Assembly: GCF_011683955.1 (NCBI RefSeq)
Contig: NZ_JAAQPI010000004.1
Coordinates: 62,001 to 126,000 of the forward strand
Direction of reading: 5' to 3'
Origin: Pseudomaricurvus alkylphenolicus
Lineage (GTDB): Bacteria; Pseudomonadota; Gammaproteobacteria; Pseudomonadales; Cellvibrionaceae
Length of the DNA stretch: 64,000 nt
Of this stretch, positions 521 to 15,178 are shown in pieces; position 1 is the first letter of the stretch, and every line of letters starts with the position of its first letter. Position numbers and translations under genes: made by a program. The notes under the pieces were generated by a model. The model did not search any database. It was not told where the DNA came from and was given only the letters and a program-made list of their open reading frames with translations.

Positions 521-536
521 TTGAATTCGAATGCAA
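521..536. promoter_or_regulatory. LacI-type operator copy 1
   Basis: TTGAATTCGAATGCAA is a 16-bp near-perfect palindrome (one pair broken) with a central CG, the architecture of LacI/GalR operators. It lies 115 bp upstream of the HisD-like gene. The same motif recurs upstream of most genes up to 15.2 kb. The matching regulator is inferred to be the LacI protein at 5562-6677. Confidence 0.65.
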
Positions 537-644
537 CCTGTCTCGAAAAAAATGCGGCATTCCGAAACTAGCGGAGATGCCGCAAAAAACGATCAAGGAA
601 GATTACAGACAATCACACAACATGGACTAGGAGTTAACCATGAA

Positions 645-660
645 TTGCATTCGGATTCAT
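645..660. promoter_or_regulatory. LacI-type operator copy 2
   Basis: TTGCATTCGGATTCAT matches the inverted form TTGCATTCGAATTCAA at 14 of 16 positions. It is 124 bp from copy 1, in the same 400-bp gene-free stretch (408-807) upstream of the HisD-like gene. Paired operators at this spacing would allow looping; that is inference. Confidence 0.5.
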
Positions 661-750
661 TATTTGTCAAACCAACACGACTGTCAAGCAAAGCGTCTAT
701 TGCCGAACTGCAAAAAAACTAATACACGCCTAAGACCGGCTTATAACAGG

Positions 751-772
751 ATGCCCGGCATACGCCGGGCAT
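751..772 (-). terminator. Hairpin after bicupin gene
   Basis: ATGCCCGGC-atac-GCCGGGCAT is a perfect 9-bp stem with a 4-base loop, 36 bp beyond the bicupin stop codon on the minus strand. The T-tract after it is poor, so it may be a weak or Rho-assisted terminator. Apart from this hairpin and the two operators I see nothing in 408-807. Confidence 0.5.
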
Positions 773-807
773 AACGAGGGTGTACAGTAACCCTGGACTG
801 TCTGACT

Positions 808-1884
808 TCAGACACTCACCCCAAGCGAATCACCAACCTCGGGCGCCCAGCTGATGCCCGCGTGCAGATCACCACTGCTGGCAACATAGAGTACTCCGCG
901 CTCATCGCCGATATTCTCTATACGTCGATACATGCCTGCAGGCACCGAAATGGTGTCTTCCGGGCCCACCTCAAACGATTCTTCCTCGCCATCGGCACCC
1001 ATGGTGATCTTCCACTGACCTTCGCCCACTACCAATACTTGCTTCACATCGTATTTGTGACGCAGGAAGCCGTTGCCGGTTTCAGCAACAATGGCACCAA
1101 GACTGAACGAATGAGGATTAAGCACGCGAGCCTGAATCTCACCCAGCTCGTGACAACCCTCCCCGATCAGCGAATGATAGAGCTTCTTGCCGCCGTCGAG
1201 TGCGACATCGCGGAACGCTTCGGCATGCCCCTGAAACTGATCCACGTTGTAAACGCGAGCCTGCATTTCCGCGAGGCTGGTGCGGTTGTACTTCAGCAGC
1301 TCGGCTTCGCTCAATGGCTGCATCAAGTCCGACGCCTGCGGCATAACATCGCCGTTATTCACGTCCACCAGAGAGCTGTCGTGACGCAAATAAAATCCAA
1401 ATTCCGCAGCACCCTCGATGACATCATTGGCCCAGGTCACAAAACCGGGATCGTCTTCGCCGAGAAACGACAACATAAAATTATCATCGCTGCCGACGCT
1501 CTCAAACGCGCGGAAGGTGCCGGTGGGAATGGAGATCACATCACCGGGCTTAAGGATGGCCTCACCATCCTTGCCATCGTAACCCCAGAAGAAGCGCCAC
1601 TCGCCACGAAAAATAATAAAGACCTCTGCGGTCACGTGAGAGTGCAGCGAATTGATCTTGCCGGTTGGCAGAGAAACACCGCCTACATTAAAACCATGTG
1701 GCTCAACGATGTTAACCACCTGCTTTTCATTCTCAGCAACACCCGGCCCGATGATGCAGTAATTCATTTTGCCTTCGCGGCCAGGCAGGCGGGTATCCAC
1801 AAAGGCCTCCGCGCAGGGGACATAGTCGGCTTTTCGAACCACTCGCTCAGCCAGGGTATGCAGGGTGTTGCTCGCGCTTGTCAT
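808..1884 (-). CDS. Bicupin protein
   Basis: A 358-residue protein with two cupin beta-barrels. Cupin 1 (about residues 65-140) has LHSHVTAEVF, fitting the HxH(x)3E metal motif, and PGDVISIPTG. The later His of the second cupin motif is replaced (FRAFES), so the metal site may have three ligands. Cupin 2 (about 255-340) has RHKYDVKQVL and PEDTISVPAGMY and appears to have lost the metal ligands. Start at ATG 1884 is preceded by GGAG nine bases upstream; the reading frame is open further upstream but without a ribosome site. It is divergent from the SnoaL pair and shares their operators. The general shape recalls gentisate dioxygenase/quercetinase-like dioxygenases or isomerases; the reaction is not known to me. 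Confidence 0.8.
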   Translation of the reverse strand: MTSASNTLHTLAERVVRKADYVPCAEAFVDTRLPGREGKMNYCIIGPGVAENEKQVVNIVEPHGFNVGGVSLPTGKINSLHSHVTAEVFIIFRGEWRFFWGYDGKDGEAILKPGDVISIPTGTFRAFESVGSDDNFMLSFLGEDDPGFVTWANDVIEGAAEFGFYLRHDSSLVDVNNGDVMPQASDLMQPLSEAELLKYNRTSLAEMQARVYNVDQFQGHAEAFRDVALDGGKKLYHSLIGEGCHELGEIQARVLNPHSFSLGAIVAETGNGFLRHKYDVKQVLVVGEGQWKITMGADGEEESFEVGPEDTISVPAGMYRRIENIGDERGVLYVASSGDLHAGISWAPEVGDSLGVSV

Positions 1885-2135
1885 ATGGATAACTCCATTA
1901 ATATCTCTCTCAATCAATACACAGACAGTGCCTGCGGTTTCTAACGAAAACAAATCCCACACAGAAATGCAGCCGAAGTCTCAAATTTGGCAATCAAAGT
2001 GGAAAATGGCCACGAATTGCTCATCTGATTCAGCCTGAATTCATCTCAGTGAAACCGTATGATTATCTAATAAGCAATTGTTTTAGTTGAAATTTATTTT
2101 CAAATCCTGGTCTTGCTGGCGTTTTCTGCGCCAAA

Positions 2136-2151
2136 AAGACTTCGAATGCAA
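2136..2151. promoter_or_regulatory. LacI-type operator copy 3 (in 1885-2387 divergent region)
   Basis: AAGACTTCGAATGCAA keeps the core CTTCGAATGCAA of the operator. It lies between the bicupin gene and the SnoaL pair, 95 bp from copy 4. The rest of this 503-bp divergent region is AT-rich near 2060-2110 and holds no convincing gene. Confidence 0.55.
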
Positions 2152-2230
2152 AACAGTCTATCCCCAGCAACTTGGGTTTGGCAAGCGTTTATTGTCTCCG
2201 GACCAACATTCAAGGTCGCCAAGCGGCTCA

Positions 2231-2246
2231 TTGACTTCGAATGCAA
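2231..2246. promoter_or_regulatory. LacI-type operator copy 4
   Basis: TTGACTTCGAATGCAA is identical to copy 8 at 15163-15178. It lies 142 bp upstream of the first SnoaL-like gene and could serve both divergent genes. Confidence 0.65.
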
Positions 2247-2387
2247 ACAATGACAAAGTCCATCCTGATGCACCCTTCGCGATGGGGCTGCTACGCTGTA
2301 TTACATTCGGTGGAGTTACGAGGCAACCGGCAACCATGAGCTGGAACGCTCATCCACTGAAATCATCAAGAGAGAGTTGAAACGGCT

Positions 2388-3479
2388 ATGACTTCAGAAA
2401 CCAACGTTAAACCCCTGCCCGTCTCGCAGGTACACATGAAAGATATTTCCGAGCTGCTGGCGCCCGGGCCCGGTCGCCGTCAAAGCATGCAAGGGTTTGA
2501 CGACGAGTTTGTGGATATTGTTGACTACATCCTGCGCATCACCCACCGTATCTGGGAAGAAAAGAACGTTGGTCTGGTCTACGACTATTACTCCCACAAC
2601 TGCCCGATTCATACCCTGGCGGGTGAAAGCTATGGCGCTGAAGCGGCCGTGCAGGGCACCATTAAAAGCCTGAATGCGTTTCCCGACCGTATTCTGTACG
2701 GCGACAATGTGGTCTGGGGCGGCAATGACAAAGAGGCGTTCTACTCCTCCCACCGCATTACCAGCACGGTCACCAACACCGGCGACAGTGAGTTTGGATC
2801 AGCCACCGGCAAGAAGGCCACCTTTGTCACCATCGCTGACTGTGTGGTGAAAGAAAATCGTATCGTGGAAGAATGGCTGATGCGGGACAATCTCAGTGTC
2901 GCTCTGCAGCTTGGTTTTAATCCTCACGATGTCGCCCGCGCTCAGGCCGAAGCGGATCGACAAAAAAGTGAACACTTTCACGACTGGCGCCTGGGCGAAA
3001 TGGACAGAGTTCTGGCTCAGACCGCCCCCAAAGCCGTCGCGATTCCAGACAATCCCGCCGCAGATCCACAGGTGTATGCCGAAGCCGTTATGCAGGAAAT
3101 CTGGAACCGCCGAATGTTTGGCAAGGTACGCGACGTTTATGCCCACAACGCCGTTTATAACGGTCCATCCGGACGCCATTTGCAGGGCCACGGCGAAATT
3201 ATCGGCAATGTGGTTAACCTGCTGGCCGCGCTGCCGGATGCACGCATGAGTGTCGATCATGTGTGCGCCATTCCCTGTGGCGATGGAGGGACCGATATTG
3301 CCGTCCGCTGGACCCTGGCGGGCAACCATGAAGGCGGCGGCCTGTACGGAGCACCGACAGGGCGCCGGATTATGATTTTGGGCTCCAGCCACTGGCGTAT
3401 CTTCGACGGCAAGATCCAGGAAGAGTGGACCGTGTTTGATGAACTGGCGGTATTGCGCCAGATTTACGGAGGCGGTTAA
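2388..3479 (+). CDS. Two-domain SnoaL-like protein, paralogue 1
   Basis: A 363-residue soluble protein made of two SnoaL/NTF2-like alpha+beta cone domains. Domain 1 (about 45-190) ends with IVEEWLMRDNLSVALQLGF. Domain 2 (about 220-360) contains YNGPSGR and ends with IQEEWTVFDELAVLRQI. Such domains occur in polyketide cyclases, dehydratases and isomerases with a buried cavity, so the fold is clear but the reaction is not. No signal peptide is visible. ATG 2388 has AGAGAG 12 bases upstream. It is followed after one base by a paralogue, so the two are almost certainly co-transcribed and may form a complex. Two LacI-type operators are upstream. Confidence 0.8.
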   Translation: MTSETNVKPLPVSQVHMKDISELLAPGPGRRQSMQGFDDEFVDIVDYILRITHRIWEEKNVGLVYDYYSHNCPIHTLAGESYGAEAAVQGTIKSLNAFPDRILYGDNVVWGGNDKEAFYSSHRITSTVTNTGDSEFGSATGKKATFVTIADCVVKENRIVEEWLMRDNLSVALQLGFNPHDVARAQAEADRQKSEHFHDWRLGEMDRVLAQTAPKAVAIPDNPAADPQVYAEAVMQEIWNRRMFGKVRDVYAHNAVYNGPSGRHLQGHGEIIGNVVNLLAALPDARMSVDHVCAIPCGDGGTDIAVRWTLAGNHEGGGLYGAPTGRRIMILGSSHWRIFDGKIQEEWTVFDELAVLRQIYGGG

Positions 3480-3480
3480 T

Positions 3481-4446
3481 TTGAAGGCTGATTTGCAGCA
3501 GCCAATGCTGACGCTGGAAACACAGCTGCGAGAACAACAGGCGGTCGGCCGACTCTATGATACGGCCCTGCACAACGTGGTACTCCATCGGGATAGCGAA
3601 ACCTTCTATGGACGCGAAGCGGTGGTCGCCGATTGGCTGACCGAATTGCACAGCTGCGGTGAACAACAGGTGCTGGAGAGCGAGGCGTTTTCCGCTCCAG
3701 CGCCTAACGCCAATGCGCAATTGGTAATGACCCACAGCCGGATTTCGGCGACGCATACTGGCGCAAGCGGTTGGCTGCCAAGGAGCACCGGGAAACCGAT
3801 CAGCTATCGCAGCCAATCACTTTACCTGGTTGCCAATGAACGCATCGTCGAGCAATGGCGCTTTGAGGATCAACTCCATATTGCTCTTCAACTGGGGCTC
3901 GCCCCTGCCGACCTAGCCAAACGACTATCACCACTTAACGGCGGCCGTTGGCAATTGGGTGAAACGGCATCGGCTCAGGGGCAGACCGGCCCCCGAATCG
4001 CCGGCTTGCCCAAAGTTGACCACAGCGATGACATCGTCAGCCAGTGGGTCGATGCTTTCAATACTCATCGCTTGGATAGACTTGGTGAGCTTTATTGTCG
4101 GGATGCCGACTTGTCGGGTCCCGGTGGCCGGGAATTGATTGACCGAGCCGACATCACAAAGTTTTGGTTATCGCTGCAAGCGGCTATTCCGGACGGGCAA
4201 CTGCTGACACAAAACATGGTGCGGGATACGGATAATGGGCGGATCGGATTGCTGTGGAGCCTGAGTGGATTTCATACCGGCCCCGGTTTAACCCCCACGC
4301 CTAGCGGCCAGCGCCTGAGACTTTCAGGGTTAACCCAGTGGCAACTCAATGATGGAGGGATTGCGAAAGAATGGACGCTGTTCAACGAGATTGATCTGTT
4401 GCGACAGATTCACTCCGGTTCCCGACAGACGCCAAACCGTTTATAG
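3481..4446 (+). CDS. Two-domain SnoaL-like protein, paralogue 2
   Basis: A 321-residue paralogue of the preceding gene with the same two-domain build. Domain 1 ends VEQWRFEDQLHIALQLGL; domain 2 has LSGPGGREL and ends IAKEWTLFNEIDLLRQI. Start chosen at TTG 3481, eight bases after a strong GGAGG (3468-3472) that lies inside the end of the upstream gene. An upstream ATG at 3436 in this frame would overlap the neighbour and lacks a ribosome site. It is presumably the second member of a two-gene operon controlled by the operators at 2136-2246. The function is unknown, but tight pairing suggests a heteromeric enzyme or successive steps on one substrate. Confidence 0.75.
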   Translation: MKADLQQPMLTLETQLREQQAVGRLYDTALHNVVLHRDSETFYGREAVVADWLTELHSCGEQQVLESEAFSAPAPNANAQLVMTHSRISATHTGASGWLPRSTGKPISYRSQSLYLVANERIVEQWRFEDQLHIALQLGLAPADLAKRLSPLNGGRWQLGETASAQGQTGPRIAGLPKVDHSDDIVSQWVDAFNTHRLDRLGELYCRDADLSGPGGRELIDRADITKFWLSLQAAIPDGQLLTQNMVRDTDNGRIGLLWSLSGFHTGPGLTPTPSGQRLRLSGLTQWQLNDGGIAKEWTLFNEIDLLRQIHSGSRQTPNRL

Positions 4447-4500
4447 AAACAGCTAACCTCCGTATTCAATACTAGAAACCAAAAAAATACTGCCAACGCT

Positions 4501-4609
4501 TGTCGCCCTCTGAGCGGGCTGCTACAGGACTCCTTTCCCCCGTAGCAGCGCGCTCCGAGCGCGACCGATACGAAGCGCCAAATCCCTATCGCCCTCAAGC
4601 GGCAGCTAC
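4501..4609. repeat. Cluster of three REP units (GTAGCAGC family)
   Basis: Units at 4501-4525 (inverted), 4542-4566 and 4587-4609 (inverted) share the consensus GTAGCAGCSCGCTC-N-GAGSGCGAC, each an imperfect hairpin. They fill the gap between convergent genes. The same family recurs at 45606-45687 and as a half unit at 15442-15459. Confidence 0.75.
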
Positions 4610-4652
4610 CGAGCGCAGTGCCAAATTGGCTTAGGCAAGCACTATCCTGCCT

Positions 4653-5450
4653 TCACCCCTTGGCAAACTCTTCAACCAACCTGTTCGCACCCTGCAGCAT
4701 AAACGAGTGGTCAGAAGCCAGTAAGAATAAATTGGCGCCACGCTCACGCCATTGGGCGCAATCCTCGACGCGCGGCACAAACATGCCGACCGATTTACCC
4801 GCCGCCTTGCCAACAGCGCAAATGCGCTCAACCGCCTCAACCACCACAGCGTCATTAGGCGTCTCTGCGCCCAGCGCCACCGTCAGATCGATGCGGCCCA
4901 CAAACAGGCAATCAATGCCATCTACGGCCGCAATTTCTTCAATGGCATCAACCGCCTCAACATCCTCAATTTGCGCAATCACTGAGGTCGCTGCCGCACT
5001 GTCTGCCAGGTGTGATTTCATCGATTTGGTGGTATACCCCGCGGCCCGTGTCGAGCCGGCGTAACCGCGGCCGCCACGACCAAATCGTGCCGCACGGGAC
5101 AAGGCTTCTGCCTGGTCGGCGCAACACACATGCGGAATCACCACTCCGCTGGCACCGCAGTCCAATGCATTCAGCAATTGCGATTCCTCACTGGACGGCA
5201 CTCTGACCAGGGACGGCTTGCCCGCTGCACGCATCGCCATCAGGCAGGCATCCAACTCCAACCGACCAAAGGGAGCGTGTTCGGCGTCCAGGCAAATGGC
5301 GTCAAGAGGGGTCATTGCCAACACTTCACACACAATTGCTGAGGGGGTTTTCAGAAAGGTGCCGATCAGAGGCTCGCCTTTTAGCAATCGCTGACGGAAT
5401 TGGATGGCAGCGGATGTGGCATCTTGAGTTGGAACCGGGGCATCGGCCAT
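4653..5450 (-). CDS. HpcH/HpaI-family aldolase
   Basis: A 265-residue class II (divalent-metal) pyruvate aldolase with a TIM-barrel fold. It should cleave a 2-oxo-4-hydroxy acid to pyruvate and an aldehyde. Visible motifs: LIGTFLKTPS, DAEHAPFG, LVRVPS with the catalytic Arg, GRGYAGSTRAAGY, and AQIEDVEAVD ... FVGRIDL, which correspond to the Glu and Asp metal ligands of HpcH and KDR-aldolase (family knowledge). ATG 5450 is preferred because AGGAG lies about ten bases upstream; ATG 5459 is almost on top of that site. A LacI-type operator (5493-5508) is 43 bp upstream, tying it to the regulon. It probably performs the carbon-carbon cleavage step of this pathway. The exact substrate cannot be read. 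Confidence 0.85.
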   Translation of the reverse strand: MADAPVPTQDATSAAIQFRQRLLKGEPLIGTFLKTPSAIVCEVLAMTPLDAICLDAEHAPFGRLELDACLMAMRAAGKPSLVRVPSSEESQLLNALDCGASGVVIPHVCCADQAEALSRAARFGRGGRGYAGSTRAAGYTTKSMKSHLADSAAATSVIAQIEDVEAVDAIEEIAAVDGIDCLFVGRIDLTVALGAETPNDAVVVEAVERICAVGKAAGKSVGMFVPRVEDCAQWRERGANLFLLASDHSFMLQGANRLVEEFAKG

Positions 5451-5492
5451 GGCGGGCATTCTCCTGCAGATTCTTAGTGACTCCTATTTGAA

Positions 5493-5508
5493 TGTACTTC
5501 GAATGCAA
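5493..5508. promoter_or_regulatory. LacI-type operator copy 5
   Basis: TGTACTTCGAATGCAA, 43 bp upstream of the aldolase start. Its inverse, TTGCATTCGAAGTACA, matches copy 6 at 15 of 16 bases. Confidence 0.65.
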
Positions 5509-5561
5509 AATCAACCCATAAGACATCGCAGGAGCAGATTCGCCACCCCCGCTGTGATTTT

Positions 5562-6677
5562 CTATAGCTGCGCGGATTCTCCTTCCAGAAACACACCACT
5601 AAAGGTGCGCTTTTCCGGCGGCAATTCGGGGTTCTCCACCCGCTCCATCAGCATATTCACCGCCGCTTCGGCCATAATTTCCAGCGGTTGGTCAATGGTG
5701 GTCAAGCGGTAGCTGGCCCAGGCGCCGGTGGAGGTGCCATCAAAACCCACAACAGAGACATCTTCAGGAATCTTCAGCCCAAATTCGTGACGCGCCGCGT
5801 CCATACAACCAATGGCCATCACATCGTTAGCACAGAGTATCGCGTCGGGCGGCTTTCTTTTGCTCATCAGATGGCGAAATGCGATGCGACCACTGTCGTA
5901 ACCATAGTCGCCCTCTTCCACCGGCACCTTGGTTACACCCAGCTCCTTTAAGCGATTCAGGGCACCTTGGGTTCGCTGATTGCTGACCACGGAATCCGCA
6001 GGGCCGCTGATAACCGCAAAATTACGATGCCCAGCGCCGTGCAGCTTATTCACCAGCAGACGCTCACCCTCTTCCTGATTACAACAGATTGCACTGACGG
6101 GGAAATCCTGGAACGAGCGGTTGTAGAACACCAGGGGAACCCCCCGCTCCTCAAAAAACGACACCTGCTCTTCGGACAGACGGGCCGCCGAGATCACACC
6201 ATCCACCTGGTACTGCCAGACCTGGTCCAGCATTTTGTCCACGTCGCTTTCATGCTCCAGTGTAAACAACAGCACGTGTACATGGCGCTCATCAAAGCGT
6301 CGACTCAGCTGTACCAACAATTCAGGGTAGTTGAGGTTGGTCAGGTTATTGATGATCACCGCCACCATATTGGAGCGGCGGGTAATCAGGCTGCGAGCAA
6401 TGGCATTGGGCTGGAAACCCAACTCTTTGGCCACCGTCATCACCTTGTCACGCATTTTCTTGGAAACGCTGGCGCCCGGCTTAAAACAGCGGGACACCGC
6501 CGACTGGGAAACACCGGCCACTCTAGCGACGTCGTAAGAGGTTACGCGCTTGCCGCTCTCCGTCATGCCCAGCTTGGGGCTTTTGGTGCCGCTTTTGCTG
6601 GCTCTGCCCCCGCGACGGGATTTTGCACTGGTTTTTGCACTGTTTTTAGCAGGCGGCTTGGCGGTGGATTCAGCCAT
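5562..6677 (-). CDS. LacI/GalR-family transcriptional regulator
   Basis: A 371-residue regulator. Residues 1-42 are a Lys/Ser/Ala-rich extension not usual in the family. Residues 46-66 (TSYDVARVAGVSQSAVSRCF) form the helix-turn-helix, and NAIARSL (91-97) is the minor-groove hinge helix with its conserved Leu. From about 105 it is a periplasmic-binding-protein-like sensor domain (MVAVIINNLTN, ILCANDVMAIGCM, VSVVGFDGT). ATG 6677 has AAGGAG six bases upstream. It is divergent from the TonB receptor across operator copy 6, suggesting autoregulation. LacI-type operators carry a central CG, as in the repeated TTCGAA motif here, so this protein is the likely reader of all copies. A sugar-like or organic-acid ligand is expected but unknown. 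Confidence 0.92.
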   Translation of the reverse strand: MAESTAKPPAKNSAKTSAKSRRGGRASKSGTKSPKLGMTESGKRVTSYDVARVAGVSQSAVSRCFKPGASVSKKMRDKVMTVAKELGFQPNAIARSLITRRSNMVAVIINNLTNLNYPELLVQLSRRFDERHVHVLLFTLEHESDVDKMLDQVWQYQVDGVISAARLSEEQVSFFEERGVPLVFYNRSFQDFPVSAICCNQEEGERLLVNKLHGAGHRNFAVISGPADSVVSNQRTQGALNRLKELGVTKVPVEEGDYGYDSGRIAFRHLMSKRKPPDAILCANDVMAIGCMDAARHEFGLKIPEDVSVVGFDGTSTGAWASYRLTTIDQPLEIMAEAAVNMLMERVENPELPPEKRTFSGVFLEGESAQL

Positions 6678-6924
6678 TTTGACTCCTTGAATCAATATCC
6701 ACTGAATCCTAATTCAAGCAACCCGGGTGTGCAAACCCTGTTGGCACCTAAGCCCCAAGCGGCAGATGATTTGTGCTTATTCCAACTCGTTAGAAGTGCT
6801 GGTTAAGCGCCTTGGAATACCTATATATAGACTCCGAAGACATTCACAATTCTTTTTAACTTACTGATATATATAATATTTTCAAACACATATACCACCA
6901 AAAGCTATAAAATTGCATTTTTTA

Positions 6925-6940
6925 TTGCATCCGAAGTACA
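6925..6940. promoter_or_regulatory. LacI-type operator copy 6 (lacI/TonB divergent region)
   Basis: TTGCATCCGAAGTACA lies in the 403-bp region 6678-7080, 141 bp from the TonB receptor start and 248 bp from the regulator start. The surrounding DNA is very AT-rich (6820-6920, with TATATA runs), as expected for promoters, but I cannot assign -10/-35 boxes firmly. No other gene is seen there. Confidence 0.6.
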
Positions 6941-7080
6941 AATACGTCATAGTAATTTCCCGGTACGAGAGAACAAGTTTTCGACCAATGATTCCTGCTC
7001 CACGTCATAACGATCTAAGCTAATCAGTGGGGCGATCGCGGAATCCATCAAGATCCTTGGACAGCCAATTGGAGAGTCAA

Positions 7081-9369
7081 ATGAACGTCACAGCCCTCAA
7101 ACCCTTATGTCGCAGCATCGCCGCTCTGACAGCAGCGGCCGCCCTGATCCCCACCGCCTATGCCGCCGAAAGCAGTGGTTTTGATCTGGAAGAGATCATC
7201 GTTACCGCGCAGAAGCGTGAGCAAAATCTGCAGGATGTGGGAATTTCGGTTACCGCCCTCGACAGCACCGCGATGGAGCGGGCCGGTATTGAAGACATCA
7301 GCCGTATCGAACTGGTTACCCCAGGTGTAAGCTATGGCTACATCGGCTCCGACGCCAAGATTTCTATTCGCGGCGCCAACTCCAACAACACCTTTGCCGA
7401 CAACTCTTCTATCGCCGGCTTTTTCGTTGACGGTGTTTACCGCCCTCGTGCCTCCCAGCAATCCCAGGCCTATTTTGACGTGGAGCGCATTGAAATTCTG
7501 AAGGGTCCTCAAGGTACCCTGTACGGCCGCAATACCTTTGCCGGCGCCATTAATCTGCACACCAATCGCCCCGATTTGGAAGAATTTGGCGGCGGCTTGA
7601 AGGCCAGTTATTCCCGTTTCAGCAAACTGACGACCGAGGGCTATATCAACGCGCCGGTCAGCGATAATTTCGGTTTGCGTTTTGCCTTTAACACCAAAGA
7701 CAGTGACGGCTGGATTGAAAACAAAGGCGACGGCGAAGATCTCGGTCAGGATGAATCGCGCAACTTCCGCGTCTCTGCTCTGTGGGCGCCAAGTGACGCG
7801 GTTGAAGTGATGTTCCGCTATACCTCCATCAAAGAAGAAGGTATTACCGCCGGCATTTTTGCGGCGGAAGGTACTTGCCAGCCCATCAACGAAAGCGGCG
7901 TGACCGATGCCTATGGCTCTCTGGTCAATTGCGTTAACCCCTACCCCGAGACCAGTGGCAACTCCTTCTTTAACGAGCCCTGGGAAGTTTCCGCCGACGT
8001 GGATTCCAAGCGCGACAACGAAGAAGACAACGTCACGCTCGACATCAGCTGGGACATCAATGAAACCCTGAGCCTGCGCTCGATCACCTCTTACACCGAC
8101 TGGGACAGCGCCTTTGATACTGATGGCGACTGGAGCAACCAGACCGGTTACGCCTATTATTGGGATGAGGAAGTTCAGTCCGTCACCCAGGAAATCCAGT
8201 TGATTTCGGACGGCGATGGCGCCCTGACCTGGACCGCAGGTCTCTACTACTCTGTTGACGATATCGGTTTCGGTTTCTCCCAGTTCCGCTCTGCTCCGTA
8301 CAGCAACAGCACCTACGCAGACTGGCAGGACATTGAAACCACCACCGAGGGCGCCTTCTTCCAGGCGGAATACGACATCACCGACACCTTCCGTATTATT
8401 GCCGGCGTGCGCAATAACCAGGAAGAAAAAGATACCCGCACTTACGGCGCCTCTGCGGTTGACGCAGAGGGCAATCCACTGCCCGGTGTAAACGAAGATG
8501 GTACCGATGGTCGCCCGCGCGATATTTACCGCTACACCGTTCGCGAAGATCGCTCAGCCGTGCGTGAGTTTGATCTGGTAACCTGGAAGCTCGGCGGTGA
8601 GTGGGATGTGGCCGATAACGTGATGGCTTACGCCAGCGTGTCCACCGGCTTCTTGTCCGGTGGTGTGAACGCTGATGGCAGTGCCTTCGAACAGCAGGAA
8701 TCCAAAGCCTACGAGATTGGTTTTAAGAGCCGCTGGGCGGACGACACCATCCAGTTGAATGTGTCCGCTTACCGTAACGAGTTTACCAACCTGACCACAC
8801 AGCAGTTAATCCGTTTGGGCACTGGCGATATCACCATTACCGTCAACGGTGGCGAAATTGAAACCACCGGCCTGGAAGCCGAGTTTGTGTGGCTGCCGAC
8901 CGAGAAGTGGCTGATCTCCGCCAACGCGTCCTTTATGGACAACGAGTATGGCAAGTTCGGCGCGGCCAACCCGTTTGTCGAGGCCAACGGCGAACCGCTG
9001 GGCTTTTTGGACCTGAATGGTGAAACCCCTCCCTGGTCACCTGACGTGACGCTGAGCCTCAGCATTGGTTATGACATTGATCTGGGTGATATGGGTCGCC
9101 TGACGCCCTTCCTGCAGACTTACTACAGTGATGAATTCAACACCGACGACGTGGTGACTTACAGCACCCAGGTGCAGGATTCTTACACTAAGACGGACTT
9201 CCGTTTGATCTGGACCTCTGCCGATGAGAACCTCAGTGCCGAGGCTTATGTCGAGAATATGGAAGACGAGGCGGTGCTGGCCAGAACCAACGTGGGCGGT
9301 TTTGATCTGGTGCAAACCAGTTATATGTACCCCCGTAATTACGGTGTCAAAGTTTCCTACAATTTCTGA
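7081..9369 (+). CDS. TonB-dependent outer-membrane receptor 1 (LacI regulon)
   Basis: A 762-residue receptor. A signal peptide covers about residues 1-27 (cleavage near AYA-AES). A TonB-box-like stretch EEIIVTAQKREQ follows, then the plug (about 45-155) with IEILKGPQGTLYGRN, and a 22-strand barrel ending in the aromatic terminus SYNF. ATG 7081 has GGAG seven bases upstream; the upstream in-frame ATG at 7027 would add 18 residues before the signal peptide. Such receptors import large or scarce solutes using TonB energy. With the symporter at 12636 it makes a complete outer- plus inner-membrane route for the unknown substrate of this regulon. The acidic, Asn/Asp-rich loops do not resemble siderophore-receptor loops that I can identify. 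Confidence 0.93.
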   Translation: MNVTALKPLCRSIAALTAAAALIPTAYAAESSGFDLEEIIVTAQKREQNLQDVGISVTALDSTAMERAGIEDISRIELVTPGVSYGYIGSDAKISIRGANSNNTFADNSSIAGFFVDGVYRPRASQQSQAYFDVERIEILKGPQGTLYGRNTFAGAINLHTNRPDLEEFGGGLKASYSRFSKLTTEGYINAPVSDNFGLRFAFNTKDSDGWIENKGDGEDLGQDESRNFRVSALWAPSDAVEVMFRYTSIKEEGITAGIFAAEGTCQPINESGVTDAYGSLVNCVNPYPETSGNSFFNEPWEVSADVDSKRDNEEDNVTLDISWDINETLSLRSITSYTDWDSAFDTDGDWSNQTGYAYYWDEEVQSVTQEIQLISDGDGALTWTAGLYYSVDDIGFGFSQFRSAPYSNSTYADWQDIETTTEGAFFQAEYDITDTFRIIAGVRNNQEEKDTRTYGASAVDAEGNPLPGVNEDGTDGRPRDIYRYTVREDRSAVREFDLVTWKLGGEWDVADNVMAYASVSTGFLSGGVNADGSAFEQQESKAYEIGFKSRWADDTIQLNVSAYRNEFTNLTTQQLIRLGTGDITITVNGGEIETTGLEAEFVWLPTEKWLISANASFMDNEYGKFGAANPFVEANGEPLGFLDLNGETPPWSPDVTLSLSIGYDIDLGDMGRLTPFLQTYYSDEFNTDDVVTYSTQVQDSYTKTDFRLIWTSADENLSAEAYVENMEDEAVLARTNVGGFDLVQTSYMYPRNYGVKVSYNF

Positions 9370-9380
9370 TCTTTCCTCAG

Positions 9381-9411
9381 GGAGTGCCCTAACAGACTAT
9401 CGGGGCACTCC
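9381..9411 (+). terminator. Terminator-like hairpin after TonB receptor 1
   Basis: GGAGTGCCC (9381-9389) pairs with GGGCACTCC (9403-9411) across a 13-base loop, 12 bp after the receptor stop. The U-tract is short (CTGTTAA). Confidence 0.5.
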
Positions 9412-9574
9412 TGTTAAATGGGCGGCCATTGCTTATGGCTGCCCATCTTTTCTTCTTCTGTGGTCAAATACACATGCAGCGATGCATTTTCTCCATGGGA
9501 TCACGACACCAGGCTAAGATAGTCTTATAGCTCACGGATAAGGTGTATCCAAGAATTTAGGGTTGAGTATTTCA

Positions 9575-10594
9575 ATGAGCAAAAGCATCCACAATCTCAA
9601 TAAAGAACGCCTGCAACAACTGCGCAGGGCACTCTACAATTTCGAACCGAGAATGGTACAGCGTGAACTGCAAAAGTGTTTCGCCACCGATGCCAAGGTG
9701 CAGCTGGCCTACCCATTCGAGAATCTGGAAGGCGCCGAGGGTTTGTTTGTGCAGGCCTATGAGCCACTGCATCAGGCGATCCCGGATCTGGAACGCCGCG
9801 ATTATATTGTCATGGCCGGTAGCGCTGGTGACGGCACCGACTGGGTGGGCTGCGGTGGTTATTACACCGGCAGCTTTGAACAGTCCTGGCTGGATATTCC
9901 CGCCACCGGGCATCAGGTGGCGATGCGTTACCATGAGTTCTTTCGTATGGAACAAGGCCAGGTTGTCGAGGTGCAGGCGCTTTGGGATATTCCTGAGGTG
10001 ATGATGCAGGCGGGCGCCTGGCCGATGGTACCCAGTCTGGGCCGTGAGTGGCATGTGCCGGGACCGGCGTCACAGGATGGATTGGTCACCTCGCCCTGGG
10101 ACGCTGGGCAGGCCGATGCAAGCTTGAAGCTGGTCGGAGATATGCTGGCGTCTCTGGGTAACTATAAAGACGGCGGTGTGGAGGCCATGCAGCTGGAAAA
10201 ATATTGGCATCCGCGCAGCAGTTGGTACGGTCCTTCGGGGATTGGCACGGGCCGTGGTATTCAGGGGTTCCGCAATTGGCATCAGATTCCGTTTTTGAAT
10301 GCGATGCCGAATCGTGTTGGTTCTGTGGCCAAGGGGAAGGGGTATTTGTTCGGTGATGGGGATTATGTGGGTTTTACCGCCTGGCCCGGGATGCAGATGA
10401 CGATCAGCGATGGGGGCTGGCTGGGGATTGCGCCGGCTAATCAGGAAGTGACCATGCGCAGTCTGGATTTCTGGCGCTGCGAGAATGGAATGATTCGGGA
10501 GAATTGGGTGTTGGTGGATTTGTTGGACGTGTATCGGCAGATTGGGGTGGATGTGTTTGCACGGATGCGGGAGTTTAATAAGGCTCGCCGCTAG
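9575..10594 (+). CDS. Two-domain SnoaL-like protein, paralogue 3
   Basis: A 339-residue protein of two SnoaL/NTF2-like domains. Domain 1 (about 1-150) contains VQLAYPFENLEG and LDIPATGHQVAMRYHEFF. Domain 2 (about 185-335) contains SSWYGPSGIGTGRG and IRENWVLVDLLDVYRQIG. It is clearly related to the gene at 11508 and more distantly to the 2388/3481 pair. ATG 9575 is preferred over TTG 9563, which sits directly on the AGGG. Its last 20 bases overlap the 3' end of the AraC gene on the other strand. Likely a cyclase, isomerase or hydratase-type cavity enzyme; the substrate is unknown. Confidence 0.8.
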   Translation: MSKSIHNLNKERLQQLRRALYNFEPRMVQRELQKCFATDAKVQLAYPFENLEGAEGLFVQAYEPLHQAIPDLERRDYIVMAGSAGDGTDWVGCGGYYTGSFEQSWLDIPATGHQVAMRYHEFFRMEQGQVVEVQALWDIPEVMMQAGAWPMVPSLGREWHVPGPASQDGLVTSPWDAGQADASLKLVGDMLASLGNYKDGGVEAMQLEKYWHPRSSWYGPSGIGTGRGIQGFRNWHQIPFLNAMPNRVGSVAKGKGYLFGDGDYVGFTAWPGMQMTISDGGWLGIAPANQEVTMRSLDFWRCENGMIRENWVLVDLLDVYRQIGVDVFARMREFNKARR

Positions 10595-11489
10595 CATTTG
10601 TAGGCAGACTTTTTCTAATCGTGCTTCGATATTGAGTGGGGCTGTACCCGGTTTCCGTACGAAAGGTTTTACTGAAGTGGAATTGGTCACAGAACCCCAC
10701 CTGCTCGGCGATGTTAGCAATGGACTGCTCGCCATAGACCAACATGGACATGGCCTGTTCCATGCGTTTGTGATTGATGTATTTCAGCGGCGACTGGCCG
10801 GTAATCTGTTTGAAGAGACGGGAAAATCCGTTGCGGGATAAGGCACAGGCTTCGGCAAGTTCTTCTACTCTAAGGGGTTGATCAAGCTCCGTATCTATAG
10901 CTTTTAGTGCCGGTCCGATGCGGTGCATTTGCAAGAATCGGCGGCCGCTGTCTTCAAGGGGGGGTGACAGGGCCAGAATGTCGAAGCAAAGTTGAAGGGC
11001 GCTGCTTTGTTTGAGTATGAGCCACCGAAGAGTGTCGGCGCCAAACCCGTCAGCTTGGTTGAGCACAGCCAGACTGTCGGTGAGCGTGTCGATGGTGCCG
11101 AAGAGTTGTTGTGACCGTTCGGCAGAAAAACGCATGGGTACCTGGAAGAACGACAGCACGTCCAGGTTGTGAAAAAGGCTGAAGTGTATATGCAGGCCGG
11201 CCGCCACTGTATGCTGGTTGACGAGCAGCCGATGTTTGACCCCGGCGGGTATAAGCAACACTTCCCCTGCGCCGACTTTTTCTGTGTCGGCGTTTTCCAG
11301 CTCGCAGCCGTATTCACCTGTTTGAACATTCAGTATGACCGCGAAGGGCAGTACCCGCCATTCAGTATCAATGCAGTTGTCGCTGTACTGAGTCCACCAG
11401 TGGATGTTGCATTGCAGAGATTGTTGAATGCGTTCCAGCAGCGCCTTATCGGGCGCCGCTGCGGTGAGTGTATTCAGCCTTGACGTCAT
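10575..11489 (-). CDS. AraC-family regulator with cupin-like sensor
   Basis: A 304-residue regulator. The N-terminal half (about 40-110; GAGEVLLIPAGVKHRL) is the cupin-type ligand domain. The C-terminal 100 residues carry the two AraC helix-turn-helices (LRVEELAEACALSRNGFSRLFKQITGQSP and IANIAEQVGFCDQFHFSKTFRTETGYSPTQYR in shortened reading). ATG 11489 is used, with GGTGAG just upstream; GTG 11501 is possible. It starts 18 bp after the SnoaL gene stop and is the last gene of the symporter-SnoaL-AraC operon. It probably adds a second, ligand-specific control layer to the LacI regulon. I did not identify its own binding site. Confidence 0.88.
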   Translation of the reverse strand: MTSRLNTLTAAAPDKALLERIQQSLQCNIHWWTQYSDNCIDTEWRVLPFAVILNVQTGEYGCELENADTEKVGAGEVLLIPAGVKHRLLVNQHTVAAGLHIHFSLFHNLDVLSFFQVPMRFSAERSQQLFGTIDTLTDSLAVLNQADGFGADTLRWLILKQSSALQLCFDILALSPPLEDSGRRFLQMHRIGPALKAIDTELDQPLRVEELAEACALSRNGFSRLFKQITGQSPLKYINHKRMEQAMSMLVYGEQSIANIAEQVGFCDQFHFSKTFRTETGYSPTQYRSTIRKSLPTNASGEPY

Positions 11490-11507
11490 TGCACTCACCA
11501 ACTTTGC

Positions 11508-12596
11508 TCAGGTGGTCCCAAGCGGGTTAACGATTCCAGTCGTACGTTGCAAAATATCCAGCCCCTGTTGCTTCAACCAATAGGGCAAATCGATCAACAC
11601 CCAATTCTCGGCGAGCTTGTCGCCTTCTCTGCGATAGATATCGACGACGCGCATGTCAGCTTTGACGTCGCTGGCCGGAAGCCCCAGGAATCCTCCGGTT
11701 GGCGTATTACTGAGATTGGGCCAGCCGAAGAAGCCGGCGTAGTTGCCTTCGGCAAAGCGGGCGACGTGGCCGTTAAAGGTTTTACCACCCAGCCCGGTAC
11801 GGAAGGGTCGCTGGTGTTGTGCCTGAAAGCCTTCGATACCAAAAGTTGCGCCGATACCTGCCGGGCCGTACCAGAGCATGTCTTCGCGCCAGGTGCGGGC
11901 CAGGTATTGCGGCGGGCAGAAGTCCTGGCCGCTCAAATTGAGTTGGTTTAGATCGTCAATCATGCGGTTAAGCAATTCTTGAGTGGCGACGCCTTCTTCC
12001 GGGTTCTGGTCTACAAACAGCATACCGTCGTGGGTACGGGGGCCGGGATAAACGAATGATGCACCGGTCTGTACGGGCAATGGGTTGATACCCAGTTGGT
12101 GCATCACGTCGATGATGTCGCAGAAGAATCCGCTGCGTACGATCTTGCCGTCCCGCACGCAGTTAAAGTCCGCGTAGCGAAGGAACGTCAATTTTCCGGA
12201 GGCCGGCAGTCCCAGCCAGTCTTGAGACAGAACGCCGGCAAAGTGACCCATACTGACCACCCAGACGTCACCGCTGGCGGTTTGATGAGCCGCCTGATCA
12301 ATGTCCGCCGGCCAGGGTTGCTCTTTGCCATCGACATGTTCGAACACGTCATTGTAACCGGCAAAGAACACGTCTTCACGGCGTTGCATCGGCGACCAAC
12401 TGCGCAACAGTGGTTGCCAAAAGACTTCGGAAACGGCACTGATTGAGTGCTGCTCCTCGAAGGGATAGACGCCATGCCACTGAATTGAGTCGCTGATATA
12501 GCGACCCAGAATATCCTCGACAGTGTCGGGGGTTGCGGATTCCAACTCTCGGTAGAACTCCCGCACCAGTGCCTTGGCGTGTTGAAACTGACTCAT
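11508..12596 (-). CDS. Two-domain SnoaL-like protein, paralogue 4
   Basis: A 362-residue two-domain SnoaL-like protein. Domain 1 has IQWHGVYPFEEQ and LGLPASGKLTFLRYADF; domain 2 has MLWYGPAGIGATFGIEGF, a GLPASDV segment and LAENWVLIDLPYWLKQQG. Domain order and motif spacing match the gene at 9575, so they are paralogues. AGGAGAGG is placed just before ATG 12596. It lies 39 bp downstream of the symporter and 18 bp upstream of the AraC regulator in one operon. His, Asp and Trp residues lining the second domain (WYGP, HQRPF) are candidates for catalysis, but there is no family member of known reaction that I can name. Confidence 0.8.
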   Translation of the reverse strand: MSQFQHAKALVREFYRELESATPDTVEDILGRYISDSIQWHGVYPFEEQHSISAVSEVFWQPLLRSWSPMQRREDVFFAGYNDVFEHVDGKEQPWPADIDQAAHQTASGDVWVVSMGHFAGVLSQDWLGLPASGKLTFLRYADFNCVRDGKIVRSGFFCDIIDVMHQLGINPLPVQTGASFVYPGPRTHDGMLFVDQNPEEGVATQELLNRMIDDLNQLNLSGQDFCPPQYLARTWREDMLWYGPAGIGATFGIEGFQAQHQRPFRTGLGGKTFNGHVARFAEGNYAGFFGWPNLSNTPTGGFLGLPASDVKADMRVVDIYRREGDKLAENWVLIDLPYWLKQQGLDILQRTTGIVNPLGTT

Positions 12597-12635
12597 TACC
12601 TCTCCTATCTAAGATTTTTTACGCTGTTGTGCCAA

Positions 12636-14294
12636 TTAGCCCAAGGTTCCGAACCAGGCCAGGAAACCCAGCGTGCACGCGAACAGCAGCGGCAGTGTCC
12701 AAACGACGGGTTCCACTTTGCCCGGTACCACATACCAGCCTTCTGACATCATGGGCTTGCCTTCGCGTTCAAACGCGAGAATCTGTCCCGGCACGCTGTG
12801 TTCGTGCCAGTCCTGCTGAAAACCGTCCAAAACCACACTGGCGATCCACGCGGCCGCGATATTGATGCCCCCGGCAATCACCACAAACCAGGGCCAGGCA
12901 ATCTCGGGGCGCTCCGCACCCATAGCCAACCAGATTCCGTCAACGGCAGGGGCAATGGGGTCCAGCGGTGCAAAAAACATGAGGCCGACTAATCCCGCCA
13001 CCACGCCAATCAACAAACCCCGCTCAGAGGTGTGTTTGGAGAAAAAGCCCATACCGAACATTGCCAGCTTCGCACCCACCAGATAGGAACCAACCTTGGA
13101 GATGACCTCAAGTATAGACCCGGTACTGCTGGCAAACTCGATCGCGATAGGAATAATGGCCAGCCCCCACAGCACGGTGAATACCCGTGACGCCCCCAGA
13201 TAGTGTTTTTCGTTGGCATCTTTATGAAAGAATTTTTGGTAAAAATCGGTTACCGACACCGTCGACAGCGAGTTAAATGCCGACGATGTGGTGGACATGG
13301 ATGCGGAGAGAATCGCCGCACCAATAATTCCCAGCAAGCCCGGAATCGCCAGCGCGTTGGCGAACACAAGGATAATTTCGTTAGGCTGTTTGAACGGCTT
13401 GCCTTCGTAATAAACGTAGAGCAGGGCACCGATCAGGAAAAATGAAAAATACAAAAAGAACGCAGCGTAACCCATCACCATATAAGACTTTTTCGCCTCA
13501 CCAATATTCTTGGCGGCCAGCGCACGTTGCACCATAAACTGATTCGCGCCGTATACCGTTATGTGATATAGCGTCATGGCGAAAACGCCCGCCCAAATCG
13601 TTGGCGCTATCGATGGGTCCCAGTCCAGATTAATCGGATTGAGCTTTCCGTGTTGGTCCAAAAAGGTCAAAGCCTGCGGCAAGGCACCGATTTCCCCCAG
13701 CAAAGCCACCATGATAATTCCGGCGCCGATAATCAAAATGATGCCTTGCAACACATCCGTCCAGATAACCGCGTTCATACCACCCAGCATGGTGTAAGCC
13801 ACCACAATTGTGGTCATCAACACAATCGCGAAGGTCGTACTCAACCCCGTGACAAACGTCACCACCACCGCGGTGGCAGTCATAATCGACGCCGCCCCCA
13901 GCGCCATGGTCACCATAAACAAAATACCCATCACCGCACGGGAGGCAATACCAAAACGGCGTTCCAGATAATCGTAGATCGACGCAACGCCGCTGTTATA
14001 AAAGAACGGGATAAAAAACACGATACAGGCGAACACCACCAGCGAATAATTGATATGAATCGCCAACGCCGCCATGCCATCGCCATATGCCCACGCAGGT
14101 CCACCCAAAAACGACAAGGCACTCACATAAGTCGCCACCACCGAAATACCGATGGCCCACCAGGGAGAACTGCGATCACCCAGATAATAGTCCTCCGATG
14201 TCGACACCCGGCGGCTCATATACCAACCCAGCCCCAGGTTCGCGATCAAATACGCAAACACCACCGACCAGTTCAGAAGACCAAATTCAGCCAT
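12636..14294 (-). CDS. Sodium:solute symporter (SSS family)
   Basis: A 552-residue inner-membrane transporter with about 13 hydrophobic segments. Diagnostic parts are the N-terminus with YYLGDRSSPWWAIG, AYTMLGGMNAVIWTDVLQG in the middle and AAILSASMSTTSSAFNSLSTVSVTDFY, the sodium-site region of the SSS family. ATG 14294 is preferred: GGGGAGAG lies directly upstream, whereas the ORF can be extended to 14315 without such a site. It is the first gene of an operon with SnoaL paralogue 4 and the AraC regulator, and carries LacI-type operator copy 7 about 104 bp upstream. It should carry the substrate of this regulon across the inner membrane after TonB receptor 1. Family members move sugars, carboxylates, proline or pantothenate; specificity is open. 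Confidence 0.92.
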   Translation of the reverse strand: MAEFGLLNWSVVFAYLIANLGLGWYMSRRVSTSEDYYLGDRSSPWWAIGISVVATYVSALSFLGGPAWAYGDGMAALAIHINYSLVVFACIVFFIPFFYNSGVASIYDYLERRFGIASRAVMGILFMVTMALGAASIMTATAVVVTFVTGLSTTFAIVLMTTIVVAYTMLGGMNAVIWTDVLQGIILIIGAGIIMVALLGEIGALPQALTFLDQHGKLNPINLDWDPSIAPTIWAGVFAMTLYHITVYGANQFMVQRALAAKNIGEAKKSYMVMGYAAFFLYFSFFLIGALLYVYYEGKPFKQPNEIILVFANALAIPGLLGIIGAAILSASMSTTSSAFNSLSTVSVTDFYQKFFHKDANEKHYLGASRVFTVLWGLAIIPIAIEFASSTGSILEVISKVGSYLVGAKLAMFGMGFFSKHTSERGLLIGVVAGLVGLMFFAPLDPIAPAVDGIWLAMGAERPEIAWPWFVVIAGGINIAAAWIASVVLDGFQQDWHEHSVPGQILAFEREGKPMMSEGWYVVPGKVEPVVWTLPLLFACTLGFLAWFGTLG

Positions 14295-14392
14295 CCCACT
14301 CTCCCCTTCTATCATCTTGGCGGCTTACCGCCTTGTCGTTATTACTGTGTAGTAGTGAAAAACTGTGGTGTCGAAAAACACCATAAACAGCA

Positions 14393-15103
14393 TCAACCTG
14401 AATTCGAATGCAGCCAATGGCGCATCGCCTCGGTAACCGCCTCCGGCTTCTCCATGGTCGCAATGTGCCCACAACCTTCCACCACCACCAGAGACGCTCC
14501 CGGTATCAAATCCGCCATTTCCTCATGGCGATCAACCGGACAAATCACATCCTCAGCACCGCACAACACCAGCGTCGGACACCTTACCGACGCCAGTCCC
14601 GGTCGGCTGTCCGGTCGCTGCACCACAGCATCAATCTGATTGCGGAACACCTCCAGACCACCGTCCACGGCCATATCCACAATAGTCTGAATCAAAACCT
14701 GATCATTGCTTTGAGACTGCGCCAGATACAAGGGAATCAACTTCTGCCGCAGCAAAAGCTCCAGACCCTCTGAAGTGGCAATCTGCCATTGCTCCGCCTT
14801 GGCAGCCATGCCCTCCTCGCTATCAGCCCGGGCATTGGTATCCAACAACGCCAAATGGCTGATCCGGTGCGGAGCCCGGCGATACAACTCCAACGCCAGA
14901 ATACCGCCGAAAGACAGCCCCGACAGCGCAAAACAAGGCGGCGCCTCGGCCAGAATCCGCTCCGCCAGAGCCCCCAGACTGGGCTCAGAGCCCACATCCA
15001 CCACCACCGGCTCCGCCACATCCGCCAAATGCTCCACCTGATGAGCCCACAAGCGCTCATCACACAAGGTACCCGGCAACAGCAACAAAGGAATTTTGGC
15101 CAC
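14393..15103 (-). CDS. Alpha/beta-fold hydrolase
   Basis: A 236-residue esterase/lactonase-type hydrolase. The nucleophile elbow is GLSFGG (Ser near residue 64), the acid Asp is in GAEDVICP and the catalytic His in GCGHIATMEKP. The oxyanion loop is LLPGTLCD near the N-terminus. It starts at GTG 15103, with GGAG seven bases upstream. No signal peptide, so cytoplasmic. LacI-type operator copy 8 is 60 bp upstream, and operator copy 7 for the next operon overlaps its last codons. Within the regulon it may open an ester or lactone intermediate. Confidence 0.85.
   Translation of the reverse strand: MAKIPLLLLPGTLCDERLWAHQVEHLADVAEPVVVDVGSEPSLGALAERILAEAPPCFALSGLSFGGILALELYRRAPHRISHLALLDTNARADSEEGMAAKAEQWQIATSEGLELLLRQKLIPLYLAQSQSNDQVLIQTIVDMAVDGGLEVFRNQIDAVVQRPDSRPGLASVRCPTLVLCGAEDVICPVDRHEEMADLIPGASLVVVEGCGHIATMEKPEAVTEAMRHWLHSNSG
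14398..14413. promoter_or_regulatory. LacI-type operator copy 7
   Basis: CTGAATTCGAATGCAG is a near-perfect palindrome. It overlaps the last codons of the hydrolase gene and lies 104 bp upstream of the symporter ATG. Being kept inside coding sequence argues against chance only weakly. Confidence 0.55.
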
Positions 15104-15162
15104 AAATCACTCCACATCAAAAAACGAAAAAATCAACAGCAACCAACTCATGCTGCCATTTT

Positions 15163-15178
15163 TTGACTTCGAATGCAA
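15163..15178. promoter_or_regulatory. LacI-type operator copy 8
   Basis: TTGACTTCGAATGCAA, identical to copy 4, 60 bp upstream of the hydrolase start. It lies in the 369-bp gene-free stretch 15104-15472, which also holds the structured element and a REP half unit. Confidence 0.65.

Follow-up and report, generated by a model that had tools for sequence, protein, structure and literature searches.

A 16-base palindrome as the likely operator of a LacI-family catabolic regulon in Pseudomaricurvus alkylphenolicus

Introduction

Which regulator governs a run of genes in which a HisD-like dehydrogenase, a bicupin, four SnoaL proteins and a pyruvate-type aldolase stand together with uptake systems, and what might these genes degrade? 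The run fills the left end of a 64,000-nucleotide stretch of the Pseudomaricurvus alkylphenolicus genome (the window; C45:62001-126000, with C45, C11, C31 and the like denoting contigs of this genome, G000). An earlier note on this DNA had pointed to eight near-palindromes around TTCGAATGCAA and read them as LacI operators that define a catabolic regulon. All eight are present at the positions it gave, as copies of a 16-base near-palindrome with the consensus TTGAMTTCGAATGCAA. As judged from sequence comparison, they very probably serve as operators for the LacI-family protein whose gene occupies 5562-6695 on the minus strand, and the genes would form a LacI-family regulon that is presumably repressed by this protein.

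Results

Eight operator copies in one gene cluster

Copies 1 (521-536, plus strand, TTGAATTCGAATGCAA) and 2 (645-660, minus strand, read there as ATGAATCCGAATGCAA) are upstream of the HisD-like gene. The 5' part of this gene occupies 1-407 on the minus strand, and the gene extends left of the window to C45:61130; its probable start is the ATG at 407, preceded by GGAGAAG and 114 bp downstream of copy 1. Copy 3 (2136-2151, plus strand, AAGACTTCGAATGCAA) belongs to the gene of the bicupin (808-1884, minus strand), a protein of two cupin domains, and copy 4 (2231-2246, plus strand, TTGACTTCGAATGCAA) lies 142 bp before the gene of SnoaL1 (2388-3479, plus strand), a tandem SnoaL/NTF2-like protein; a second tandem SnoaL protein, SnoaL2, is encoded at 3436-4446 on the same strand, with an uncertain start codon. 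These four copies form two pairs: copies 1 and 2 are 124 bp apart and copies 3 and 4 are 95 bp apart, a spacing that would permit looping if the repressor were tetrameric. Copy 5 (5493-5508, plus strand, TGTACTTCGAATGCAA) precedes the HpcH/HpaI-type aldolase gene (4653-5459, minus strand) by 34 bp, while copy 6 (6925-6940, minus strand, TGTACTTCGGATGCAA) sits between the divergent lacI and TonB-dependent receptor genes, 141 bp before the latter (7081-9369, plus strand). Finally, copy 7 (14398-14413, plus strand, CTGAATTCGAATGCAG) lies 83 bp before the gene of an SSS-family sodium:solute symporter (12636-14315, minus strand), and copy 8 (15163-15178, plus strand, with the same letters as copy 4) lies 60 bp before an alpha/beta hydrolase gene (14393-15103, minus strand). 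The statement that every site is upstream of a gene thus holds for copy 7 with respect to the symporter, but this copy also lies within the 3' end of the hydrolase gene. With a position-weight matrix built from the eight sites only, the best other score in C45:50001-126000 (the window and 12 kb on its left) reaches 11.1, compared with scores of 22.8-28.7 at the eight sites, in agreement with the claim that no copy follows after 15.2 kb.

The proposal that the listed genes form a single unit fares well for most of them, which have operators, and less well for two. The symporter, SnoaL4 (11508-12596, minus strand) and AraC-type regulator (10575-11501, minus strand) genes are consecutive and share a strand, 39 and 6 bases apart, so that the AraC gene, the last of the run, is reached only through the symporter operator. 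SnoaL3 (9563-10594, plus strand) here lacks its own operator, and a strong terminator-like hairpin of 12 pairs (9418-9446), 3' of the receptor gene, separates it from the receptor; its relative in G130 (G130_C1b, 63%), unlike the window protein, does have an operator. At the same time, the regulon is larger than had been stated: it continues left of the window, where an SDR gene directly follows the HisD-like gene and is itself followed by genes for a LuxR-type regulator and a SnoaL protein of one domain, all on the same strand, and it appears to extend to at least one unlinked site.

That site emerges from a search of the whole 8.88-Mb genome with the pattern AMTYCGRATGCAR, which has 11 exact matches, eight of them the window copies (backward control, 3). 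Were the matches scattered uniformly, the probability that eight of 11 land in this 14.7 kb would be about 1e-20, and the random scatter that would speak against a regulon is not what we find; a related pattern, AMTTCGAATKCA, occurs at eight places in the genome, six of them in the window cluster. Of the three remaining AMTYCGRATGCAR matches, the one at C45:452857 lies between a TonB receptor gene, which it precedes and whose product is 44% identical to the window's receptor, and a SnoaL gene, and is plausibly a regulon member. The match at C35:10319 falls inside a 961-residue open reading frame (ORF), and around C3:218065 the matrix score never exceeds 9 in the surrounding 12 kb. As AMTYCGRATGCAR was derived from the window copies themselves, the independent test is provided by relatives.

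The operator follows the LacI gene across genomes

Among 145 genomes, 10 (own included) encode a LacI relative at E 1e-60 or better, and 4 of 369 genomes drawn from the class (again with our own) do so at E 1e-70; the search of genome contigs gave 14 loci, 11 at 51-84% identity and three at 26-28%. The held-out set consists of 18 loci around LacI orthologues from other genomes or records, 466,220 bases in all, picked by the LacI protein and not by the motif. It leaves out L043 and L044, which duplicate the records of G047 and G050; L049 (99% identical to L050); L052 (a relative of L051); L054-L056 (LacI 26-28%); G047_C49, G047_C375 and G332, where LacI identity is about 40% or lower; and the unlinked G130 and G098 stretches. 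In these 18 loci the matrix finds 67 matches, compared with 0 or 1 for 20 column-permuted matrices and 0 for the reversed matrix, and only two of the 67 fall in coding interiors, which account for 82% of the sequence. The motif is therefore not absent from relatives, and the reading of the palindromes as LacI operators of a catabolic regulon gains support here.

The exact 13-mer ACTTCGAATGCAA tells the same story across the 145 genomes: 37 copies in the 10 genomes with a LacI orthologue and 9 in the other 135, with a backward-read control of 2 and 23, respectively (presence against orthologue, Fisher p 2e-9). Eight of the nine matches in LacI-free genomes were fetched (G001, G015, two in G090, G117, one of two in G027, G048, G099); six lie inside ORFs of at least 150 residues, that of G117 in a 120-residue ORF, and that of G027 straddles the 5' end of an ORF. 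A central CG is present in all 89 sites collected, which were selected with a matrix that itself contains CG.

More distant LacI relatives on plasmids extend the picture. Of 41 plasmid records with a relative at E 1e-60, nine loci were fetched, one of them from a Deinococcus, and eight have TTGMATWCGWATKCAA with at most one mismatch (15 matches against 0 in 20 first-order resamples, the consensus having been composed after the plasmid sites had been viewed). The ninth, from Ensifer (L095), has the near-palindromes GTGCATTCGAATGCAC, CTGCATTCGAATGCAG and ATGCATTCGAATGCAC with the same core, so that related operators occur at nine of nine loci.

Could the palindromes nevertheless be a chance pattern or a dispersed repeat family? 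Loose forms of the motif would allow it: the 11-mer TTCGAATGCAA with up to two mismatches gives 28 matches, not above shuffles (mean 21.4, s.d. 4.9; 12 of 100 shuffles reach 28), and AMTYCGRATGCAR, itself a loose 13-mer, is present in 105 of 145 genomes. The distribution of ACTTCGAATGCAA and the held-out matrix test, together with the clustering in the window and the plasmid matches, leave this explanation a negligible probability, and we reject it.

Several observations weigh against the regulon or narrow it. Since AMTYCGRATGCAR is so widespread, its mere presence does not discriminate, and discrimination rests on the exact core and on clustering. The matrix threshold of 17 was fixed only after the listing of site scores had been viewed, and the loci are mutually related (L045 and L046 share 84% DNA identity over 2 kb). 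Two of the 18 held-out loci, the short contigs L045 and L047, have no site scoring 17 or more; G030 has the orthologue and only variant sites, with no exact ACTTCGAATGCAA; and G332 (38% LacI) has a single weak variant. In G098 (C1:549447, L087) a full-strength operator, ATGACTTCGAATGCAA, lies between genes for a monomeric isocitrate dehydrogenase and a class II (threonyl-type) tRNA synthetase with no regulon gene seen nearby, which means that not every match need be functional. On an Azospirillum plasmid, LacI, operator and an ABC transporter occur with no kernel enzymes within 10 kb. In the window's own genome, two further HisD-SDR pairs (C11:541680 and C11:361856; L110, L111) have no site scoring above 11, and neither does a SnoaL4/AraC/SnoaL cluster on C31 (G000:C31:12580-15988, L108). 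Promoter-like matches in the region, seven in number, do not exceed shuffles (mean 10.0).

The LacI protein is the best candidate for the regulator

The protein encoded at 5562-6695 is a LacI-family transcription factor by its N-terminal helix-turn-helix (PF00356, 46.5 bits, cut-off 27) and its periplasmic-binding-type sensor (PF13377, 103 bits, cut-off 26.5). LacI-family operators are described as even palindromes of 16-22 bases with a central CG (PMC4052901), and the motif is a 16-base even palindrome with a central CG. The recognition helix GVSQSAVSR is conserved together with the operator: it stands in 23 of 25 printed rows, the other two being G011, whose helix is not displayed by the regular expression, and a row of L052 that is a different LacI (30%). 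In the plasmid loci the expression finds it in seven of nine, as GVSQSAVSR in six and as GVSQSTVSR in Ensifer. The gene lies in the middle of the cluster, as had been pointed out, and the joint conservation of helix and operator supports its product as the regulator.

But is LacI the only regulator at hand? The AraC-type gene at 10575-11501 and the LuxR-type gene left of the window both belong to the cluster, and proteins of both types often control catabolic genes, so that the palindromes could in principle be theirs. Among the relatives' loci compared, a good AraC match occurs only in G047 (52%), while the motif is found in other loci too; conversely, the C31 cluster has an AraC relative (50%) and yet no operator. 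A central CG of the LacI form is not a known feature of AraC sites, and across 145 genomes the motif tracks LacI. We regard another regulator as very improbable.

A further alternative is that several LacI paralogues use one operator, forming a network rather than the regulon of a single regulator. G047 illustrates it: this genome encodes three LacI proteins (84%, 41% and 41%) that share the helix and the type of operator, and all three have regulon-like genes as neighbours: symporter, receptor and hydrolase genes in the case of G047_C49, bicupin and SnoaL genes in that of G047_C375. In the window's genome only a single LacI protein passes E 1e-60. We consider such a network unlikely, with the single-regulator regulon preferred.

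Operator placement suggests repression

Copies 2 and 3 cover the expected start points of two promoter-like sites. The site of the HisD-like gene (659-687, minus strand; TTGACA-17-AATAAT, 11 of 12 matches) has the best score in the region, and copy 2 overlaps the last two bases of its -10 hexamer; that of the bicupin gene (2155-2184, minus strand) reads TTGCCA-18-TAGACT with 9 of 12 matches. A repressor bound over these start points would block initiation. One further idea, that the asymmetry of the operator reflects an overlapping -35 box, was dropped: the orientation relative to the target gene is reversed, with 30 sites opposite and 14 the same (p 0.02; of 89 collected sites, 39 lie between two genes and six near no gene).

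The HisD-like enzyme is neither a typical HisD nor a typical HpsN

The full HisD-like protein passes the NCBI model TIGR00069 (hisD) with 465.9 bits against a cut-off of 243.8 (its 181-residue part within the window alone scores 93), which gives annotated relatives the automatic name histidinol dehydrogenase, whereas it stays far under the cut-off of the narrower PRK13770 (264.6 of 647). Its best match among solved structures is sulfopropanediol 3-dehydrogenase, HpsN (390 bits, against 269 for histidinol dehydrogenase), and it retains the catalytic Glu318-His319 and Asp352-Lys353 positions. This raises the question of whether the regulon serves dihydroxypropanesulfonate (DHPS) or another sulfonate. 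In a DHPS pathway, HpsN is likewise paired with further DHPS oxidoreductases (PMC11382572), and on the Azospirillum plasmid a gene for an alkanesulfonate monooxygenase lies about 9 kb away from lacI. PMC11382572 gives the diagnostic motif as GRY[AS]H in HpsN, with the sulfonate-binding His126, and as GSAPL in HisD. In our protein the motif is GKYPL, which matches neither, and [KR]YP[LM] stands in 19 of 19 printed rows (some being the same gene in two loci). No sulfolactate-lyase-type domain was found among the Pfam-scanned proteins of the window's genome, which covered part of it. A sulfonate regulon, having failed the HpsN motif test, is in our view improbable. Instead, as far as sequence comparison goes, the [KR]YP[LM] enzymes appear to form a third clade, which should still carry out a four-electron oxidation next to a hydroxyl or amino group that is bound by zinc. 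The window's genome has three HisD-like/SDR pairs, the C11 proteins being 85% and 73% identical to the window's, and a more distant HisD-like gene (C69:92591, 36%) that could be the biosynthetic hisD copy.

The aldolase belongs to the HpcH/HpaI family (PF03328, 102.6 bits, cut-off 25) and stays below every equivalog cut-off listed (GarL 146.9 of 406.8, HpaI 119.4 of 368.8 and KDR aldolase 93.6 of 441 bits); other loci have RraA proteins, 4-hydroxy-2-oxovalerate aldolase or 3-oxo-tetronate kinase. The bicupin has an N-terminal HxHxxxE that is invariant in 16 of 16 rows and an invariant Arg126, where cupins usually have His; among the top Foldseek matches of its model (predicted local distance difference test score, pLDDT, 84.6), the nearest folds are oxalate decarboxylases at 14-17% identity and TM about 0.54. 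The SnoaL1 model (pLDDT 88.1) has two NTF2-like domains in one chain and retrieves mostly single-domain NTF2-like folds; its top match, the double-domain lasalocid epoxide hydrolase 3rga, superposes poorly (root-mean-square deviation 17.4). An amidohydrolase in relatives is similar to 4dlf, with L-fucono-1,5-lactonase as its best NCBIfam model (106.4 of 400 bits). Together with the 3-oxo-tetronate kinase of the Ensifer locus and the sugar ABC transporters, this amidohydrolase hints at a sugar-acid-like substrate. Pfam, NCBIfam and PDB sequence searches, the two structure models with Foldseek and the plasmid neighbourhoods did not name the substrate, in agreement with the earlier note, which could name no pathway.

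A recurrent kernel with changing transporters

What do the related loci have in common? We clustered the ORFs of 23 loci, 22 of which have a LacI gene, and assigned domain names on representatives. Two SnoaL groups occur in 17 and 16 loci, SDR and HpcH aldolase groups in 16 each, the HisD-like group in 15, and bicupin and small alpha/beta hydrolase groups in 14 each, followed by symporter (13), TonB receptor (12), Amidohydro_2 (11) and MetE-like (10) groups. Rarer are a group of about 486 residues with sub-threshold alpha/beta-hydrolase matches only (5), a TPR-sulfotransferase group (4) and a 537-residue group (4) in which Pfam identifies one protein as a GMC oxidoreductase. The recurrent kernel is made up of the HisD-like dehydrogenase, SDR, pyruvate-type aldolase, bicupin, tandem SnoaL proteins and hydrolase, with lineage-specific transporters: TonB receptor with sodium symporter, sugar ABC, MFS or TTT systems, and TRAP or MFS transporters at two loci found through the HisD search. 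Unlinked operators occur in G130 as well, where two receptor genes and one SnoaL gene have them, and HisD-like genes of this kind are also found without a LacI neighbour.

The C31 cluster contains a SnoaL4-like protein (78%), a single SnoaL (90%) and the AraC relative beside a GMC-type protein (42%). Its SnoaL-AraC-SnoaL gene order is the same as at the G047 LacI locus.

Discussion

How, then, might the system work? Without inducer, a LacI dimer would be bound to the operators, two of them at expected promoter start points, and would repress uptake through the outer membrane (TonB receptor) and the inner membrane (sodium symporter) as well as the catabolic enzymes; an intermediate of the imported compound would release LacI. 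The hydrolase and SnoaL steps may open or rearrange the substrate, with SnoaL proteins and bicupin acting as lyases or isomerases ahead of aldol cleavage. The HisD-like enzyme would oxidise a terminal CHOH-CH2OH, a sugar-like diol, to a 2-hydroxy acid, from which the SDR would yield a 2-oxo acid, and the HpcH-type aldolase would cleave the latter to pyruvate (or hydroxypyruvate) and an aldehyde. This order, diol oxidation before formation of the 2-oxo acid and aldol cleavage, is offered tentatively and with rather low confidence. Taken further, the LacI subfamily with the helix GVSQSAVSR and the operator TTGCATWCGWATGCAA, or its drifted form TTGACTTCGAATGCAA, may govern one undescribed catabolic pathway across Proteobacteria and Deinococcota: a [KR]YP[LM] HisD-like clade would act on a sugar-like diol, new lyase or isomerase steps would come from the tandem SnoaL proteins and from an atypical bicupin, the route would end in pyruvate, and transporters (TonB with SSS, sugar ABC, MFS, TRAP, TTT) would be swapped by lineage. 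We consider the case for this broader proposal evenly balanced.

LacI regulons are already a known kind. The carbohydrate-catabolism regulons of Ravcheev et al. 2014 (PMC4052901) share with ours the helix-turn-helix and periplasmic-binding-type sensor, the 16-base palindrome with central CG, operators before transporter and catabolic genes, and a local regulon; in contrast, histidinol, SnoaL, aldolase and Novosphingobium are absent as words from the main text of that paper. The HisD-like enzyme shares with HpsN, its closest solved relative, the two catalytic pairs and differs in having Leu or Met in place of His126 and [KR]YP[LM] rather than RY[AS]H (PMC11382572); from HisD, whose TIGR00069 cut-off it passes, it differs in GKYPL instead of GSAPL, in its catabolic regulon setting and in its greater closeness to HpsN. 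With oxalate-decarboxylase-type bicupins, the bicupin has two cupin domains and HxHxxxE in common, while the low identity and Arg126 set it apart. Single domains of the SnoaL proteins match SnoaL2, AclR, ChaU and similar folds, but the proteins here are tandem and two-domain and belong to a catabolic rather than a polyketide-building cluster. Open-licence PMC literature gave no recognisable description of the cluster among the matches listed, nor any of six operator variants as words in the texts searched; as supplements, preprints and subscription papers lay beyond this search, a database or supplement may already contain a prediction of it.

The operator provides a sequence handle for the genes of one pathway in unannotated genomes, unlinked receptors included, and marks proteins automatically named histidinol dehydrogenase, ester cyclase or cupin as probable members of a catabolic route. 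It also makes the substrate question tractable, since a related LacI and such operators occur in named strains of Novosphingobium, Ensifer, Pantoea and Deinococcus; Exilibacterium tricleocarpae R142 likewise has an orthologous locus, with a LacI at 84% identity.

Two observations stand apart from this argument. Beside TonB receptors (L060, L062, L066, L070 and L074), TPR proteins that carry a sulfotransferase domain at the C terminus occur repeatedly, several of them within reach of the same operator. And L049 (JASJYH010000087.1, titled Anaerolineae) and L050 (JADFPU010000039.1, titled Proteobacteria) share 99.3% identity across 11.5 kb, so that one of the two is probably mis-binned.

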